Of a stretch of 13,216 bases of DNA, positions 750 to 13,045 are shown piece by piece. The first letter of the stretch is position 1; every line of letters begins with the position of its first letter. The notes below the pieces were generated by a model. That model did not search any database, had not been told where the DNA came from, and saw only the letters and a program-made list of their open reading frames with translations. The position numbers were made by a program, and so were the translations under genes. The stretch lies in contig CANHGC010000013.1 in the NCBI GenBank assembly GCA_947460045.1, positions 1-13,216 on the forward strand. Reading direction: 5' to 3'. Source of the stretch: Bacteroidota bacterium (GTDB lineage Bacteria; Bacteroidota; Bacteroidia; NS11-12g; UBA955).

Positions 750-949
750 TGAATAATACACTCAAGGTTGAGCGGGCAAAGTTGGATTTAACCCAGCAGC
801 AGTTGGCTGATAAAGTGGGGGTTTCACGTCAGACAATCAACTCCATTGAAGCTGAGCGATATATCCCATCAACCGCCCTTGCTATCAAGATTTCTGACGT
901 TTTCAAAACGAGCGTCAATGAGATTTTCACCCTCGAAGAGGATGATTGA
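749..949 (+). CDS. Small XRE/Cro-CI family transcriptional regulator
   Basis: A 66-residue stand-alone helix-turn-helix protein of the HTH_3 (Cro/CI) type, in the short YozG-like class. Helix 2 is about 17-24 (QQLADKVG) and the recognition helix is 26-34 (SRQTINSIE), with the typical turn VGVSRQT. The C-terminus NEIFTLEEDD is the usual acidic tail. It should bind DNA as a dimer and often autoregulates its operon; the target here is unknown, although the 23-bp repeats upstream contain an imperfect inverted core that could be tested as its site. It starts one base inside the stop of the membrane protein gene. Its last 37 bases (913-949) occur again at 2128-2164, which shows this locus was rearranged. 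Confidence 0.9.
   Translation: MNNTLKVERAKLDLTQQQLADKVGVSRQTINSIEAERYIPSTALAIKISDVFKTSVNEIFTLEEDD
913..949 (+). repeat. Left copy of 37-bp direct repeat (3' end of the XRE gene)
   Basis: These bases encode the C-terminal VNEIFTLEEDD and stop of the XRE regulator. They match 2128-2164 at 36 of 37 positions; the one difference is C928 versus T2143. The two copies flank the glycine-zipper/kinase cassette. Confidence 0.9.
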
Positions 950-5042: not shown

Positions 5043-5966
5043 TTAATCCATCACATACCGCAATCTCACGAATCCAGAGACCTTTGGATCGTCTTTCCAA
5101 TAAGTGTAAGGAATTTTAACAAACATCACATGGTGCGCTCGACCGTCTGCTAAAGTCTGTGTGGTAACTTCCATGAAATTCCTTTCGTCACTGTCAAGTT
5201 CATTCCAGAAAATATCATTATCATCTATATCGTTTACAGTCACTTTGCCTGATTTGAACAAATAGATATAATTATGCTGAGGAATGGCATTGTAATCGGG
5301 AAATAAATTCCTAGGACGCTCTGGATTGTTGTAGAAACTCTGAAAGTTGCCAGTATAATCTATAGATTTCAAATGCAACCCTGGCCAAACACCTTCCAAA
5401 GGACGATATTGACGCATGAAAGAATCACACACCTCCTTTTCATTGGTTTTTCTGTGAGGAAAATCAATTAAATAATCATTTGCTTCTTCGTCTGTATTCC
5501 ATGTAAATGCCCGACTAATTCGCTTAAACTCCCGCATTCCAACAATTAGCGTTGTATCTCCGGTGGTAAAACCAAATTGCGATGCTGAATCAGCAGCTCT
5601 GAAGGCAATAAAACGATCTACTTTAGTGTAAACAGCGAACTTGTACTTGTCGGGAGATAGCGGCTCAAAATACCCTATTGGCATCCAATAATATTTAAAT
5701 TGGTTAATTAAATCAGGATTCGCAGCATAATAATCCATCGTGTCAGTAATCTTCCAACCCATACGGCCCTTCACTACAGTAGAATCAATCATCCAAAGTG
5801 GATCTATACCTTTATTGTTTTGACAGAGTGAATCAAGGTATTGTTCTTTAGTCAACTTTACCAGAATGGGGTCTTTGACAGTTGGCAATGGATCTTGCTG
5901 ACATCCTGTTGCACTGATGAGAATTGCAACAACCAAAGCGAGGGTGGGGATGAGTTTGTGTTTCAT
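5043..5966 (-). CDS. Hypothetical lipoprotein, downstream tandem paralog
   Basis: A 307-residue protein with a lipoprotein signal (hydrophobic LALVVAILISATGC, Cys22) followed by a polar linker. It is a paralog of the next gene upstream: both share LTK.QYLDSL near residues 38-47, the WMIDSTV/LMIDSTV and KG.MG segments, PIG..EP, D.DIF..ELD, TT Q.LADGR and the C-terminal KIPYTYWKD followed by VSGFVR.RYV. I do not recognise the family. The pattern suggests a beta-rich, membrane-anchored surface or periplasmic protein. Only 18 bases separate it from its paralog, so they are likely co-transcribed. The first 40 or so coding bases are almost identical to those of the paralog, well above the rest of the gene. 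Confidence 0.8.
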   Translation of the reverse strand: MKHKLIPTLALVVAILISATGCQQDPLPTVKDPILVKLTKEQYLDSLCQNNKGIDPLWMIDSTVVKGRMGWKITDTMDYYAANPDLINQFKYYWMPIGYFEPLSPDKYKFAVYTKVDRFIAFRAADSASQFGFTTGDTTLIVGMREFKRISRAFTWNTDEEANDYLIDFPHRKTNEKEVCDSFMRQYRPLEGVWPGLHLKSIDYTGNFQSFYNNPERPRNLFPDYNAIPQHNYIYLFKSGKVTVNDIDDNDIFWNELDSDERNFMEVTTQTLADGRAHHVMFVKIPYTYWKDDPKVSGFVRLRYVMD

Positions 5967-5974
5967 ACTGTTAG
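5928..5974. repeat. 47-bp near-identical block at the start of the downstream lipoprotein gene
   Basis: Matches 6861-6907 at 46 of 47 bases (the exception is at 5960 versus 6893, G versus T on the plus strand). It covers the first codons of the signal peptide plus eight bases upstream of the ATG (TAACAGT before ATG on the coding strand). Confidence 0.85.
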
Positions 5975-5984
5975 GCTGATTGAT

Positions 5985-6899
5985 TTAATTTAACACATAT
6001 CGAAACCTCACAAATCCAGAAACGTATGGATAGTCCTTCCAATACGTGTAAGGAATCTTCAAAAACATGACCTGGTGCTCACGGCCATCAGCCAATTTCT
6101 GTGTTGTTATTTCCATAGAGGTCGGATCATCTCTGTCAAGTTCGATTTGAAAAATGTCATTGTCGAACACATCGTCTTCTGTTGTTCTTCCCGCCTTGAA
6201 CACATAATAATACAAATGAGGGAATCCATCCTCATTCGCTAAATTCCCCGCACTCGGATCAGAAGGGTCATTGTAAAATATTTCCTGCATTCCATATTTG
6301 GAAACGCTGGCCGCATAAAATCCAAACCAATTTTCTTCAAACGCATGATAATGATTGATAAATGAGTCGATTACTGCTTGCTCGTTGGTGTTTTTGTGAG
6401 GAAATGTTTCGAGATATACTGAAGCTTCATACGGGGTCATATCGGGAAGAACCCTGCTTACTCGTTGAAACTGCAGTATCGCAATTGAAAGCCCTGTGTC
6501 ACCTGTATTTAGTCCATATTGAGAAGAGGAATCAGCCGATTTTATCGAAATATAACGCCTCACTTGGGTGTAAATGGCGTATTTGCCCTGGTCTTTAGAC
6601 CAAGGTTCGACATTGCCTATTGGTAATACTACATACCTAAATCGATAATTCGGCGCCTCATCAGTTCCAAAAATCACGGTATCAGTAAATCGCAACCCCA
6701 TGCTGCCTTTCATCACCGTTGAGTCGATCATTAACACTGTTGACAAACTGACATTGTTTTTGAAAAGCGAATCTAGATATTGGTCTTTTGTTAACTTGGT
6801 GCTACCACTTGTATTGGGCGGGGTGATGTTGTTTTGATCACAGGCACCGATGAACAATGTAACAACCAAAGCGAGGGTGGGGATGAGTTTGTTTTTCAT
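5985..6899 (-). CDS. Hypothetical lipoprotein, upstream tandem paralog
   Basis: A 304-residue protein with a good lipobox (LFIGAC, Cys20) after a hydrophobic segment and then a Thr/Asn-rich linker (DQNNITPPNTSGST). It is clearly homologous to its neighbour over the full length: KLTKDQYLDSLFKNN, SADSSSQYGLNTGDT, FPHKNTNEQ and a C-terminal IPYTYWKD...VSGFVRFRYV are shared. The family is not known to me. The tandem copy, equal length and similar termini point to gene duplication followed by divergence. The 121-bp gap upstream (6900-7020) carries a hairpin at its far end but no exact consensus promoter; the pair may have its own promoter there. Confidence 0.8.
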   Translation of the reverse strand: MKNKLIPTLALVVTLFIGACDQNNITPPNTSGSTKLTKDQYLDSLFKNNVSLSTVLMIDSTVMKGSMGLRFTDTVIFGTDEAPNYRFRYVVLPIGNVEPWSKDQGKYAIYTQVRRYISIKSADSSSQYGLNTGDTGLSIAILQFQRVSRVLPDMTPYEASVYLETFPHKNTNEQAVIDSFINHYHAFEENWFGFYAASVSKYGMQEIFYNDPSDPSAGNLANEDGFPHLYYYVFKAGRTTEDDVFDNDIFQIELDRDDPTSMEITTQKLADGREHQVMFLKIPYTYWKDYPYVSGFVRFRYVLN

Positions 6900-7020: not shown

Positions 7021-8730
7021 TTACCTCAAAACGATGATTTTCTGGGTATTGTTGTGGTTCGCAAATTGTGTTTTTACCAAATAGTTTCCGGTGGGTAAGC
7101 TTTCCAAGTGTATCAGAGTTTTTAACGCTTTTGTGGACTGCTCATAAACGACTTGCCCTTGCATCGTCATCACAGTGACAGTCTGGATCGGCTGCAGCGC
7201 ATCGATGTGTAAAATCCCTTGATCAACAGGGTTGGGGTAGTACTTGGGTTGTTCGCTGCCAAGCAATTGCGTTTGTGCGTTGGGTGAGCAAATTTTCACG
7301 ATCCACATGGTCTTCTGATAGAGCGGTGTCTTTAATATCATTCCATTTGTGGAAGAAACCGTTTTTCCCGTGTATGCGTATAAATTGAAAGTGGCCGACT
7401 GTGCAGAATAATCAGAGTAAAAGCATTTGTAATTGATTGTATTTTGAGATCGAAAGTGTTTTATCGAATCACCGATTACAGTGAAGAAAACATTCAAAAA
7501 CGTTGGGTCTGTATTGCTTTGTGGAGTATACGTTTTTCCATTAAAATCAAAAGTGCTGTCAGTATTGGCAATCAGTGTGATTTCGTTATTGGAAGATTTG
7601 AAAAAGCTCATACCCACTCGGGTGTACTCTGCCTTGTCCGCAAATGTGCTTAGTTTTATTAAATTGAACGCTGTGTCAAAAATGGCCAATGAATTTCTGC
7701 CAGCTACTGGTGCTAAGTATAGCCGCATTGTGTTGTCGTATAACTTCTGGCCCAAATTGTTGTGAGGGAAATAAAAACGATTGTTCGCAAAATATAAACT
7801 CGATGGTCTGCCTAGAGGGTTAACGCTACTCGAACAACCAATGGTGTAACTCGAAACGATTTGATTGTTGGTTTCTTTGATGATCAAATAATCCCATCCG
7901 TCAATGCCGAGTCCAGGATTTAATTTTCGTAAGGCATTCGAATATGATTGGTTGGTGCTAGGCACAAAAATGCCTTTCTGGTATTTAAGAAAATAGTAAA
8001 ACCCATAGGGTGTGGATAGCATACCGTAACTGCTAATATCGGAGCTGTTTTGGGCCAAAAGCGTTTTCTTGACGATGTTGAAATTTGCATCGAGTTGCAA
8101 TGTGTAAATGTCTATTGCGCTGTTGGGTTTGATCGAATCTCCATTATTCAAGTAGGCGTTCTTATTAACAATCATCAACATGGTTGCTCCTGATTTTGTG
8201 CAATGTATATCGTTTTCGCCTTCCCAAATTCTTTGTTTATTGGTCGTTTCTCCAATTTTTACAAATTGTACATTGCTCAAGTTTGAATCGATGCGGACAA
8301 TGCCTACAACTGACTTATTCAGAGCATTTACGCTCACTGAATTGTTGATTTTGTAAATTTTGTTATAGGCCGTGAGCACATAGGCCAAACCACCTGTACT
8401 GGGATCTAAGCGAAGATTGGGGTTGGTGTACGGCATGGGCAAAATCAAATCCATTTGTGCGACAATATTGCCGGTATTGTCGTATTTGATGATCAAACAT
8501 TTGTAATCTGCCGATGTGTTTTCAGTGTGCTTTTTCTGGTCTACTGCGATGGAATCGGTGTACCAAAAGGCTTTGTAGGTATTTACGCCATTGTGCGATA
8601 GATCTGTAGTAATATGCATGAGCTGCTTGTCGTAGCTAATGTTTAAGTTGTACTGCTGACACTGTCCGAAAGCATATGCGTGCCCAAAGAAAAACAGTGC
8701 AATAAGAATGAAATGTTTGATTCTATTCAT
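7021..8730 (-). CDS. T9SS-exported beta-propeller-like protein with type A C-terminal sorting domain
   Basis: I take the ATG at 8728-8730 as start, giving 569 residues with a signal peptide (MNRIKHFILIALFFFGHAYAFGQ). The reading frame extends to an ATG at 8808 and beyond, but that extension is a FecR-gene remnant and would bury the signal peptide. The body has repeated short strands of the kind CLIIKYDNTGNIV and IYTLQLDANFNIVKK, as in secreted propeller proteins. The C-terminal about 72 residues are a T9SS type A domain: YYPNPVDQGILHID, VTVMTMQGQVVYE, LESLPTGNYLVK and a final KIIVLR. The product should be exported by PorU/PorV-type machinery and attached to the surface or released. No catalytic motif is visible. 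It follows the STN-barrel gene on the same strand. Confidence 0.85.
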   Translation of the reverse strand: MNRIKHFILIALFFFGHAYAFGQCQQYNLNISYDKQLMHITTDLSHNGVNTYKAFWYTDSIAVDQKKHTENTSADYKCLIIKYDNTGNIVAQMDLILPMPYTNPNLRLDPSTGGLAYVLTAYNKIYKINNSVSVNALNKSVVGIVRIDSNLSNVQFVKIGETTNKQRIWEGENDIHCTKSGATMLMIVNKNAYLNNGDSIKPNSAIDIYTLQLDANFNIVKKTLLAQNSSDISSYGMLSTPYGFYYFLKYQKGIFVPSTNQSYSNALRKLNPGLGIDGWDYLIIKETNNQIVSSYTIGCSSSVNPLGRPSSLYFANNRFYFPHNNLGQKLYDNTMRLYLAPVAGRNSLAIFDTAFNLIKLSTFADKAEYTRVGMSFFKSSNNEITLIANTDSTFDFNGKTYTPQSNTDPTFLNVFFTVIGDSIKHFRSQNTINYKCFYSDYSAQSATFNLYAYTGKTVSSTNGMILKTPLYQKTMWIVKICSPNAQTQLLGSEQPKYYPNPVDQGILHIDALQPIQTVTVMTMQGQVVYEQSTKALKTLIHLESLPTGNYLVKTQFANHNNTQKIIVLR

Positions 8731-8781
8731 GGCTTGTATGTTGATTTTAAGTGGATTACGATTTAAATGAAGAAACACTGA

Positions 8782-8839
8782 GTTTTCTTTTTTGGGGACA
8801 ATTTCCATGTTGAATGTTTCTTGGATTATTTCGAGGATG
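8782..8839 (-). pseudogene. Remnant of a FecR/DUF4974 gene 3' end
   Basis: These 58 bases match 10751-10808 at 54 positions. On the minus strand they read ILEIIQETFNMEIVPKKEN, against ILEIIQETFNIEIVSEKET in the intact FecR-like gene. The remnant begins five bases beyond the stop codon of the STN-barrel gene and is still in frame with the T9SS-cargo gene downstream, which is why an artificially long N-terminus could be predicted for that gene. Confidence 0.88.
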
Positions 8840-8843
8840 ATGT

Positions 8844-10724
8844 TTACTTATTTGTGGGTAGTGATTTTTGCAAAACCAATCCTGAGTTGAGCGGGATGTT
8901 TAAACTAAATCGGATTCCGCGCTGCAATTGTTGCTTGTAGGTAGGCAACACAACTGTAGGTAAGGGGTCAGTTCTATCGATGGTTGCAAAGGATTTTGCT
9001 AAATTTTCATTCATCAATAAAGGAAGTGAAATTTTTAAGATACCTGTCCTGATCATGATCCCTGCATCGTAAAAAGAGGGTCCAAATGGGAATGTTATCC
9101 CGCTCAAAGTTCCCCAGGGATTAAGCTTTTGTGACTCTTGCCAAGCCCCGTCGAAAAACAATCGAATCGCTGATGGCACTTTGGGCAATCCTATGGAAAT
9201 ATTGACTGACTTTAATATCCCTTGTGACCCAAGGAATGTTGACGTCCCCATACCTCCCATATTCTCCATGCGTTGCTGTCCGAATGTTGTATTTTGATAA
9301 TCACTAATGAAAGTGTTTTTTAAATTCGTTGCACCAGCGGCCCTCCCGACGAAATAATTATCATAAAACACATCTTCATCACCTGAGGCGCCGCTCAACT
9401 TTAATTGCATTTTGGAATATATGCCTGCTGAACGCCCAGAACTTATTTTAAAGACGGTACCCAAGTATACGCGGACTTCTATGCTGCGTTGTTTTTTTAT
9501 TGCGGATATATAATTCCATGTATATTTCGCTTCAGTTTGAAATCTGCCAGTAGAATTGTTTGTATATGGAGATATAAAATTCAACCATTCAATTCCCGTT
9601 TTAAATTCCAGAGAAGAGGTAGGCCCTTGTTTGAAGGCATTGTAATTCAATCTAAAACCGCCTTGAAAATCTATGTAATCATTGAAGCTTAATTTACTAT
9701 GCGATGCAAAGAGTCCTGTGATTTCAACAAAACTCGAGAATTCGTTTCCGCGTTTGGGGCTACTCAATTCCATTATGCCATAGGGTTTCAATACTTGAAA
9801 AGATGATTCAACTGGGAAAGGTGCCGTGTTGTAAGTTTTGCTGGATCCTAACTTCAACGCGCTAACCCCAAGCCGTAAGGTTTTAAAGTAACTGCCCACT
9901 TTTGTGTTGTAACTAATATCGGCAATGCCAGAAATGGCTTTACGTTCGAATGAAAACATGGGCACCAAAGTATAGCGCCATTTAGGTTCTGGTTTACGCG
10001 TATTAAAAAAAGCGAGACCCAGCATGAGACGGTCGTACTGATTCCAACCTATGGCTGGCAGTAGGCAGTGGTTGCGCACTTCGGGGATCACATTGTTGGG
10101 GATGATATTCCATCGGTTTCCAGATCTCAAAGAGATGACATCTTTGTTGAGTATAGTTTCAATTTTCACAAATGGACTGACGATTTGGTAAAATGATTTT
10201 ACCTGTGGTTGATTGATATCGTTCGAATTTGGTAGGCTATCTGTCAATGTTTTTTTTAAATTTTCGCCGCTTTTTGTTGTGGGAATTTGTATTGTGCTCG
10301 TATCTTGAATGGAGTCAAATCCAATCGTTTTTTCGGTTGGTTTGTCTTTTCCGTGGTCGTTGAGGTCAAATTCTTTTGTGCCATTGACGATTTTCCCATC
10401 TTCTATAGTTCGAATCACTAGATAGTTCCATCGAATGCGATAGACATAATTTTTGCCTAACATTCTTGATAATCCTTGAGCCAATGTAAGATTGACCCAT
10501 GTATCTGCACTGACGATTTTGGGAAGAATTTCATGATTATAAGAAAAGAAGAGGTTGGTTGCCAACTCAAGTTTTTCGAGGGCTTTTGTGGTGCTGCCGG
10601 CGGGAACAATGAAGTTTATTGGTTGATTGATGTTGGGTGCTGATGATGGTGTATTTGAATGGATTGTTTGCGCCGATAGCGATGCGATGAGGTGTGTGGT
10701 GATGAGCAGGAATAGTGTTCTCAT
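8844..10724 (-). CDS. STN-domain outer-membrane beta-barrel protein, no TonB plug seen
   Basis: A 626-residue protein with a signal peptide (MRTLFLLITTHLIASLSAQ). Residues about 37-105 form an STN (secretin/TonB short N-terminal) domain: NFIVPAGSTTKALEKL, the typical FFSYN at 59-63, and NLTLAQGLSRML. A polar Ser/Thr/Asn-rich linker runs to about 175. From about 220 there are barrel-like strands (LLPAIGWNQYDRLMLGLAFFN, YTLVPMFSFERKAISGIADISYN). That segment recalls the barrels attached to M1-peptidase or DUF5686 proteins, from memory and not checked. I see neither a TonB box nor a plug domain, and the length is short for a TonB-dependent receptor. Its ATG overlaps the FecR-like stop (ATGA at 10721-10724), so it is the likely signal-input partner of that protein. 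Confidence 0.82.
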   Translation of the reverse strand: MRTLFLLITTHLIASLSAQTIHSNTPSSAPNINQPINFIVPAGSTTKALEKLELATNLFFSYNHEILPKIVSADTWVNLTLAQGLSRMLGKNYVYRIRWNYLVIRTIEDGKIVNGTKEFDLNDHGKDKPTEKTIGFDSIQDTSTIQIPTTKSGENLKKTLTDSLPNSNDINQPQVKSFYQIVSPFVKIETILNKDVISLRSGNRWNIIPNNVIPEVRNHCLLPAIGWNQYDRLMLGLAFFNTRKPEPKWRYTLVPMFSFERKAISGIADISYNTKVGSYFKTLRLGVSALKLGSSKTYNTAPFPVESSFQVLKPYGIMELSSPKRGNEFSSFVEITGLFASHSKLSFNDYIDFQGGFRLNYNAFKQGPTSSLEFKTGIEWLNFISPYTNNSTGRFQTEAKYTWNYISAIKKQRSIEVRVYLGTVFKISSGRSAGIYSKMQLKLSGASGDEDVFYDNYFVGRAAGATNLKNTFISDYQNTTFGQQRMENMGGMGTSTFLGSQGILKSVNISIGLPKVPSAIRLFFDGAWQESQKLNPWGTLSGITFPFGPSFYDAGIMIRTGILKISLPLLMNENLAKSFATIDRTDPLPTVVLPTYKQQLQRGIRFSLNIPLNSGLVLQKSLPTNK

Positions 10725-11413
10725 TGACAGCTACCCCCTTTCAACCAGATGGTTTCTTTTTCGGAGACAATTTCTATGTTGAATGTTTCTTGGATTATTT
10801 CGAGGATGTTTTGGATGGGCTCATTGTCAAATGTTGCAGTGAGTTTACACTGCATCAATTGGGGCTTTTCAATTTTGATGGTTACGCCATAGTTTTGGCT
10901 CAGGATTTCAGCCACTACAAGGAGTTCTGTTTGCTTGAATTGCAGTATTTTGCTATTCGGCAACGGATTATTTATGTTGGTTTGTGGGGCTGAATGGATG
11001 GATGGGGCTGTGTTTATTTCTGACTTTCGCGATGCGATATGGATCACATCTTGGGTGGTTGTCGTTTTTTTGTCAACTGTCGCTTGAGTTGGATCGACAA
11101 TTTTTGACTGGATTGTCTTTACGGTTGTAGATACTGTTTTCTTTTGGGATTGCTTAATCTGGTAAACAGTGCCTGCTATAACGCTGGCGCCAACCGCACC
11201 CCACAACAAGAGTTTTTTTACGGTGAATTTGGCGATGGTTTTTACGGGTGTGGTGGAGAGCAGGGAGGCAGAGACGGCGGTAGCCCCTAAATTCATTGAT
11301 ACTTTTTGCCATGCCTTGTCGGTATTGGGTGTCCAAGGGTTGGAGGGCTTGGCAATTTGCCAAATCGAATCATCTTGGGGGGTGTTTACGCCGAAGTTTT
11401 CTGGATTTTTCAT
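10721..11413 (-). CDS. Minimal FecR-like anti-sigma protein with C-terminal DUF4974
   Basis: Started at the ATG at 11411-11413, which overlaps the sigma stop codon (ATGA), the protein has 230 residues; an in-frame ATG at 11443 would add ten. The N-terminal 66 residues are cytoplasmic and contain PWTPNTDKAWQKV (26-38), similar to the sigma-contacting segment of Bacteroidota FecR proteins. A transmembrane helix follows at 67-84 (LLLWGAVGASVIAGTVY). After a Thr/Lys-rich linker, residues 157-228 form the DUF4974 domain: FKQTELLVVAEILSQNYGV, CKLTATFDNEPIQNILEII and the typical end WLKGGSC. The usual middle FecR domain (PF04773) is missing. The DUF4974/STN contact probably passes the signal to the sigma factor. 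Confidence 0.85.
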   Translation of the reverse strand: MKNPENFGVNTPQDDSIWQIAKPSNPWTPNTDKAWQKVSMNLGATAVSASLLSTTPVKTIAKFTVKKLLLWGAVGASVIAGTVYQIKQSQKKTVSTTVKTIQSKIVDPTQATVDKKTTTTQDVIHIASRKSEINTAPSIHSAPQTNINNPLPNSKILQFKQTELLVVAEILSQNYGVTIKIEKPQLMQCKLTATFDNEPIQNILEIIQETFNIEIVSEKETIWLKGGSCQ

Positions 11414-11976
11414 GGGTTTGAAATAATTAAAAATGCGAGCCACAATAGGGCGTGAGTTGAAAGTTTGATTTTGAGTATTTGCAATGCTTTGTGTAGGTGG
11501 TACTCTACGTTTTTAAGCGAGAACGACAGGGTTTCGGCAATTTCTTTGTGACTAAAACCGTGGAAACGACTTAAGATGAAAGTTTGTCTCGTGGTTTCTG
11601 TCATTTCCAATAATGCTCGGGTAACCGCAGTTTCAAGTTCTTTGGTTTGAAGTTGGATGTCGGCGTTGTTCTGATGATTGCCTTCCCAATAATGTTGGGT
11701 GTGGTAGGTTGCGTGTTTTCGTTTGACAGCTTGATGCTTGATGTTGTTCAGGCAGCGACTGTAAACGGTTTTGAAGAGGTAGGCTCGACAGTTATCGGGC
11801 AGGGGTTTGTTTTGGTTGGTTTCCCAAAACTTGAGAAATATTTGTTGAACGATGTCTTCAGCTTCTTCTTTTGAGCCAAGGTATGTGAGTGCGTATCGAC
11901 ACAAATCAGCATAGTTTTCGTAGAACAACGATTGTAGCTGAGATTCTGTTAAGGTCGATGTAAATTCTGCATTCAC
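11410..11976 (-). CDS. ECF RNA polymerase sigma-70 factor (FecI-like, Bacteroidota type)
   Basis: A 188-residue extracytoplasmic-function sigma factor. Region 2 spans about 15-84, with EEAEDIVQQIFLKFW (37-51) as the core-binding and -10-recognition part. Region 4 spans about 113-170, with the helix-turn-helix GFSHKEIAETLSFSLKNVEYHL (140-161) for -35 recognition. The C-terminal tail HALLWLAFLIISNP is hydrophobic, as in many Bacteroidota FecI-like sigmas. The start is GTG (11974-11976); there is no in-frame ATG near it, and upstream the frame closes with a stop. It is the first gene of an ATGA-overlapping operon with the FecR-like and STN-barrel genes. It would direct RNA polymerase to envelope-response promoters when released by its FecR partner. 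Confidence 0.92.
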   Translation of the reverse strand: MNAEFTSTLTESQLQSLFYENYADLCRYALTYLGSKEEAEDIVQQIFLKFWETNQNKPLPDNCRAYLFKTVYSRCLNNIKHQAVKRKHATYHTQHYWEGNHQNNADIQLQTKELETAVTRALLEMTETTRQTFILSRFHGFSHKEIAETLSFSLKNVEYHLHKALQILKIKLSTHALLWLAFLIISNP

Positions 11977-12046
11977 GATGGTAAGACAACGAAGTAGCGA
12001 ATTACCCTAAATAAATCACAAAAAAAAATGCACAGTTTTCTTTTGT

Positions 12047-12762: not shown

Positions 12763-12831
12763 TTACACGTGGTGGGTTTTAGGTCCCAAGTAAATCGAAT
12801 GAGAATCTATGTAGCTATATCCATCAGACAT
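12763..12831 (-). pseudogene. Possible 5' remnant of a Fic toxin gene
   Basis: A 22-codon frame starts at an ATG (12829-12831) that overlaps the antitoxin stop by eight bases (ATGTCTGA), which is the usual antitoxin-toxin coupling. It begins MSDGYSYIDS, reminiscent of Fic-family N-termini (a short polar start then Y.YP/D), and ends after YLGPKTHHV. No Fic motif (HPFxxGNG) follows anywhere downstream on this strand within the window. The start position is strong as context, but the similarity is short and could be chance. Confidence 0.35.
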
Positions 12832-13045
12832 ATGCCTGGGATTTGGTAATGCTGATTAATTCGGACAATGAAATTTGACCAAGGATGTAATCTCGCACCA
12901 ATGTTACAGATTTTGGTGTTGGCTCAAAGCCCTCAAACATGTTGCTGCCAATCGCATATGCTGTAGATTCTAATACAGAAAGAGTAGGGAACTTTACACC
13001 CATAAGTGTAAGCTGTTCTCTGTTTATAATGATCTCTTTGTACAT
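12824..13045 (-). CDS. VbhA-like antitoxin of a Fic toxin system, orphan
   Basis: A 73-residue protein. SNMFEG at 34-39 matches the Fic-inhibitory motif (S/T)xxxE(G/N), with S34, E38 and G39. It is followed by FEPTPKSVTLVRDYILGQISLSELI, the usual second helical part of VbhA-family antitoxins (GLEPS...L...Y..GEIS.EE.I). In the known system the inhibitory glutamate blocks ATP gamma-phosphate positioning in a Fic AMP-transferase. An AGGA Shine-Dalgarno site lies at 13053-13056, seven bases before the ATG. The expected Fic gene should start at the overlapping ATG at 12831 but is missing, so the antitoxin appears to be left alone. An exact palindrome at 13058-13074 upstream is a likely operator. 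Confidence 0.8.
   Translation of the reverse strand: MYKEIIINREQLTLMGVKFPTLSVLESTAYAIGSNMFEGFEPTPKSVTLVRDYILGQISLSELISITKSQAYV

Follow-up and report, generated by a model that had tools for sequence, protein, structure and literature searches.

The window, by which we mean the whole stretch of DNA analysed (13,216 nucleotides), is contig C13 of an assembly that is fragmented (291 contigs, 1.78 Mb in all) and 80% complete. Its minus strand carries, in this order, an ECF sigma factor gene, a FecR-like gene, a gene labelled STN-barrel and the gene of a T9SS cargo protein that ends in a Por secretion tail; behind the cargo gene come two related tandem genes and then others. The features that concern us are the following.

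11980..12007, minus strand: candidate operon promoter, GGGTAA-N14-GTCTTA, conserved in 3/3 operons
11410..11976, minus strand: ECF sigma factor gene, first of the operon (Sigma70_r4_2 and Sigma70_r2)
10721..11443, minus strand: FecR-like gene, complete (PF16344 FecR_C, E 6.5e-14, and homologues)
10751..10808, minus strand: part of the FecR-like gene from which the copy derives, in the FecR_C domain
8844..10724, minus strand: gene labelled STN-barrel in the original prediction; order and 4-base overlap with the FecR stop kept in two relatives, G010 and G005
8782..8839, minus strand: ectopic copy of the internal FecR-like stretch, between the STN gene and the cargo gene (54/58 identity to 10751-10808)
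8731..8808, minus strand: open-frame extension of the cargo gene, 26 codons from an ATG inside the copy, probably not translated
7021..8730, minus strand: T9SS cargo gene (PF18962 tail), likely true start ATG 8730, shared with relatives

A gene with sigma-70 regions 2 and 4 is followed by a gene with a FecR domain, which is the arrangement of an ECF sigma/FecR operon. In many database versions of the FecR-like protein the start lies 10 codons further in, giving 230 aa. The STN and barrel labels of the third gene are a reading taken from the original prediction and were not confirmed: the protein had no Pfam match at E 1 and 0 sequence matches in the PDB, and the model predicted from a three-sequence alignment was unusable (mean pLDDT 27.9). 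Residues ~204 to 625 of this protein match, at 50-54% identity, part of open frames ~1,100 residues long in eight genomes of the genus. The candidate promoter block, also given as GGGTAA-N14-GTCTTACC, sits upstream of the sigma gene, a few bases before its listed GTG start, and may be either a near-leaderless promoter or a sign that this start is misplaced. At two mismatches or fewer, GGGTAA-N14-GTCTTA has 2 matches in the window versus a mean of 2.9 in shuffled sequences, and is thus no rarer than expected by chance. A contig search for further loci of this operon gave only the two known relatives, and viral contigs yielded one weak partial-protein match (26%).

The stretches 8782-8839 and 10751-10808 are identical at 54 of 58 positions, in the same orientation and without gaps, as originally claimed (the BLAST core of the pair is 53/56). 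The best other site in the window matches the 58-base stretch at 30 positions, and the maximum over 50 first-order Markov controls was 34/58, versus 54/58 for the pair; identity drops on both sides of the repeat, leaving sharp edges. The copy lies about 2,000 bases from its source in the FecR-like gene. The match had been described as the end of that gene: it is indeed a partial duplicate of the 3' region, but it stops near the end rather than at it, the final nine codons (IWLKGGSCQ) and the stop codon (10721-10750) being uncopied. Likewise, the copy reads ILEIIQETFNMEIV in frame, as was stated, but the FecR-like gene's own reading differs and is ILEIIQETFNIEIV. The frame of the copy is that of the cargo ORF, whose earliest listed start is ATG 8808, and not that of the STN gene. 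The identity of the match and its sharp edges support its reading as a partial duplicate of the FecR-like gene. Four bases (8843-8840) separate the STN stop codon (8846-8844) from the copy; AAACATC is common to both places if a 3-base slip is allowed, in which case the left edge of the copy may extend to the STN stop codon.

One of two explanations offered originally was that the STN gene had been inserted between the FecR gene and its 3' end. On the one hand, the gene is flanked by direct repeats, much like the zeta-toxin gene pair at another scar of the window (see below). On the other hand, such an insertion would put the last FecR codons behind the downstream repeat, and these nine codons and the stop instead follow the upstream repeat and abut the STN gene; the FecR-STN junction is moreover identical in three species (the window's, G010 and G005), all with a 4-base overlap between the FecR stop and the STN start. 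This contradicts the insertion claim, which we reject as scarcely credible. The STN gene follows FecR in both close relatives that have the operon, with no empty site (FecR without STN), and the FecR-STN pair is unbroken and common to the three species, which settles the puzzle of the locus. Between the repeats lie the STN ORF, a 67-codon ORF on the opposite strand and part of a second such ORF. No recombinase was found in this segment or among the 15 window proteins scanned in Pfam.

A widespread dispersed repeat would have told against a FecR origin, and one was looked for. The window's own genome gave good scores at two places only, with two further matches at E 1.42. In a search of 70 family genomes, with up to 12 candidates scored per genome, the copy was present only in the window's own genome and in none of the 69 others; the other matches were to the FecR gene of G010 and to the cargo start of G006, with a third, of 31 bases in G062, that adjoins the copy sequence and does not lie within it. 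Short local repeats as such are not peculiar to this genome. There were 5 pairs in 307,913 bases of it, a sample made up of its 21 longest contigs out of 291, with three truncated at 20 kb; the window accounts for 3 of these 5. G022 had 24 pairs in 298,257 bases, and seven genus loci had 8 in 63,212 bases. A coding/non-coding label for these pairs (set for 0, 4 and 3) was left unused: neither scar of the window was picked up by it, since the false cargo extension counted as coding and a 66-aa gene fell under the 80-aa limit.

The copy is absent behind the STN gene in both relatives, over 313 bases in G010 and over the whole intergenic stretch in G005, and what lies downstream of STN differs (in G005 a 291-aa gene, then a cargo gene). 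A decayed copy at that position was also considered, and rejected by local alignment of 70 bases to the FecR 3' ends. Of nine alignments, the three with the window as query recovered the copy itself (0/1000 shuffles reached the score), and of the six with G010 or G005 one score was reached by 45/1000 shuffles and the other five by 114 to 956. Sequence comparison indicates that G010 and G005 are sisters: FecR is 78% identical between them and 69% and 63% identical to that of the window, and STN 82% versus 72 and 69%. The absence of the copy from both therefore counts as one independent observation. Two silent sites separate the sequences: the copy and the window's FecR gene read ATC-CAA, and G010 and G005 read ATA-CAG. 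The copy thus likely arose in the line leading to the window, once G010 and G005 had split off; we had initially taken this as proven and downgraded it, since with the two relatives being sisters, two silent sites make copying after the split the simplest reading without proving it. An older copy could also have been lost on the branch that G010 and G005 share.

The four differences between copy and source bear on age. Met stands in the copy at a position that is Ile in each of the 30 closest FecR proteins (P0073-P0102), and all 16 nearest other FecR proteins (P0103, P0105-P0108, P0110-P0120) have Met, which implies that the copy predates the change from Met to Ile. One difference would therefore lie on the FecR side and two on the copy side (Glu to Lys and, the last of the four, Thr to Asn). 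The remaining difference, Pro/Ser, was at one point read as a change in FecR. This reading was dropped, since the homologues vary at the site (11 Pro, 2 Thr, 2 Ser and 1 Val among the 16 proteins with Met) and the G005 DNA has Ser. Changes on the copy's own side seemingly amount to only two or three of 58 bases.

Another conceivable source is a sister lineage in which FecR still reads NMEIVP, the copy having travelled with the cargo gene; we hold this to be very improbable. P0103 and similar FecR proteins do share the copy's Met and Pro, and the cargo family is mosaic between lineages, but ATC-CAA is common to the copy and the window's own FecR gene.

The same leader occurs in database proteins. 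A 595-aa cargo protein starting MEIVPKKEN is recorded in the clusters P0001 (7 contigs), P0002 (2) and P0003 (1), and a protein search with the leader alone gave 8 matches, with the extension in P0001, P0002, P0003 and P0025. P0025 (599 aa) begins MEIVLEKENVHFF and then shares NRNPLK.N.QA, which indicates the same event seen in a diverged line; its extension is open and in frame across a length difference of four codons. P0025 is 80% identical to the window's cargo protein, which was also considered as a sign of great age; since P0025 is a mosaic, this was dropped. The longest contigs of P0001, P0002 and P0003 measure 17223, 6319 and 375540 bases, and the same figures recur for the clusters P0078, P0090 and P0088 of near-identical FecR proteins; judging from these equal sizes, cargo and FecR genes probably lie together on those contigs. 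FecR proteins 96-97% identical to that of the window are also found on contigs of 1375505, 676133 and 587722 bases. In none of the 72 cargo clusters, for which candidates had between 0.55 and 1.75 times the length of the query, is the longest contig one of these, which suggests that such a cargo gene is absent from those three FecR contigs. An assembly artefact might be feared in a genome as fragmented as this one. Nevertheless, the two copies differ at 4/58 positions, the same leader occurs in P0002, P0003 and P0025, and the FecR and cargo clusters share longest-contig sizes, so that we regard an artefact as practically out of the question.

The copy creates a long open frame for the cargo gene, and the N-terminal extension from ATG 8808 had been predicted to be false. 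This is likely so. Relatives with the same type of signal peptide (P0005-P0007, P0028 and P0029) are recorded from the residue that matches ATG 8730, the equivalent ATG is also present on contig 19 of G006, and upstream of ATG 8730 homology to other cargo genes fades within ~25 bases. Position 8808 is thus probably a false start, and the annotation of the cargo ORF should probably begin at 8730. Alternatively, the copy could be functional, by placing the start codon of a 26-residue STN-coupled cargo leader 35 bases downstream of the STN stop, or as a cis-acting leader. The copy is in frame, open, provided with an ATG and little changed, and the database proteins P0001-P0003 and P0025 start there. 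Gene callers, however, tend toward long frames, and recorded starts are therefore weak evidence for a leader; the entries for other relatives with this signal-peptide type begin at MNRIK or the equivalent residue, the leader differs much between the window and P0025, and the candidate promoter of the operon is absent from the copy. An ECF promoter within the copy had been considered separately and was rejected (the best site needs 6/12 mismatches, versus 5/12 in the FecR stretch). A role for the copy therefore seems unlikely to us.

We favour, with moderate confidence, the explanation that the copy arose in a single event as the T9SS cargo gene came to lie behind the sigma-FecR-STN operon, and that it has no present role. 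The fragment behind the STN gene was copied from the FecR-like gene, and the FecR-STN junction was left undisturbed; that this took one event by way of microhomology, and left no function, is what we infer. A strand ending behind the STN gene would have paired with the FecR gene through a few shared bases (AAACATC, with its 3-base slip), copied ~58 bases of it and rejoined ahead of the cargo gene, a process that may have been microhomology-guided template switching or repair during rearrangement. Against this stand the small number of changes in the copy, two or three being few for an old unconstrained scar, the extension in P0025, which is still open and in frame, and the slip that AAACATC requires, so that this match could be chance. 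No intermediate of the copying event was seen among the loci compared.

The other explanation offered originally, a lost copy of the operon, would amount to a tandem duplication with one end inside FecR and the other just past STN, whose second unit was later deleted down to 58 bases. The same direction of the repeats and the start of the copy right behind the STN gene, as at a tandem junction, would suit it. It requires two events, however, and tblastn at E 0.1 found no other FecR or STN protein remnant in the window. When FecR and STN DNA was compared with the rest of the window, one 23-base match (E 0.055) appeared, which we take as chance. Moreover, 0 of 58 genomes had two FecR matches (9 had one, 49 had none). 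A lost operon copy was thus not borne out, and we consider a trimmed duplicate doubtful, although the data do not firmly separate it from a single-step copy.

The favoured reading, a scar left by a single copying event, makes the locus look like an ordinary rearrangement leftover and not like a new kind of element. Templated insertions and partial gene duplicates at rearrangement junctions likewise consist of nearby coding sequence copied over a short length on the same strand, with possible microhomology at one edge; here the junction before the event is not available, so that the route is deduced. FecI-FecR-type operons have the same sigma and FecR_C genes, followed by a third gene read as an outer-membrane STN protein, but here the third gene lacks a Pfam match and the copy plays no visible part in the system. 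Sites of attL/attR-like integration also show direct repeats of a gene's 3' region on either side of a gene. Unlike such sites, this locus has no recombinase match among the 15 window proteins scanned, relatives have the flanked STN gene at the same junction, and the last nine codons are omitted from the repeat.

The cargo gene beside the copy belongs to a family (7021-8730; P0001-P0072) from a freshwater Flavobacteriales group in which the same signal-peptide ends occur on differing bodies. Of the 72 cargo homologues, 70 could be divided at the mature N-terminus, which P0058 and P0061 lack. The 19-residue signal sequence MKNYILFAAISFLAGRLTG precedes bodies from two clusters, 11 and 14, whose identity to the body of the window's protein is about 67% and 84%, respectively; with signal-peptide types assigned by an ad hoc scripted rule, type A occurs on body clusters 8, 11 and 14 and type B on 13 and 14. 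Among chosen examples, P0006, P0025, P0028 (two choices of parents) and P0004 have mosaic bodies (0/2000 shuffles), and P0010 tested as not mosaic (356/2000 shuffles). These patterns suggest frequent recombination between relatives in the cargo family. A copy at the 5' edge of a gene from an often-recombining family fits a junction scar, and the repeat marks a junction beside a family whose 5' ends and bodies have seemingly been reshuffled, which may merit a study of its own. The FecR fragment might even be one of several interchangeable 5' ends of this recombining, surface-secreted family, supplying a FecR-derived leader and a start codon coupled to the STN gene; we hold this to be quite improbable, but if true, it would tie a cargo member to the expression of the operon.

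Several other junctions and repeats were seen in and around the window. On contig 79 of G005, a chimeric gene (L071, 2779-3594) joins the first 71-75 residues of a cargo protein to a relative of the outer-membrane barrel protein encoded at 2171-2839 of the window. The first scar of the window (913-949 and 2128-2164, identical at 36/37 positions) repeats the 3' end of an HTH gene beyond a glycine-zipper ORF and a zeta-toxin-like gene. On contig 79 of G005, more of this HTH tail is present (L071, 2700-2768), again beside the outer-membrane gene, and the position of the tail beside that gene may be ancestral. The related tandem gene pair at 5043-6899 is 72% identical over 225 bases at the 3' ends and 91% identical over 64 bases around the starts. 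Tandem repeats of 23 bases occupy 36-217 at the contig end, and bases 1-90 of the window are 99% identical to the end of another contig of its own genome, C147. Near the opposite end of the window, a small ORF (12824-13045) matches the antitoxin VbhA (PF18495, E 5.3e-7).
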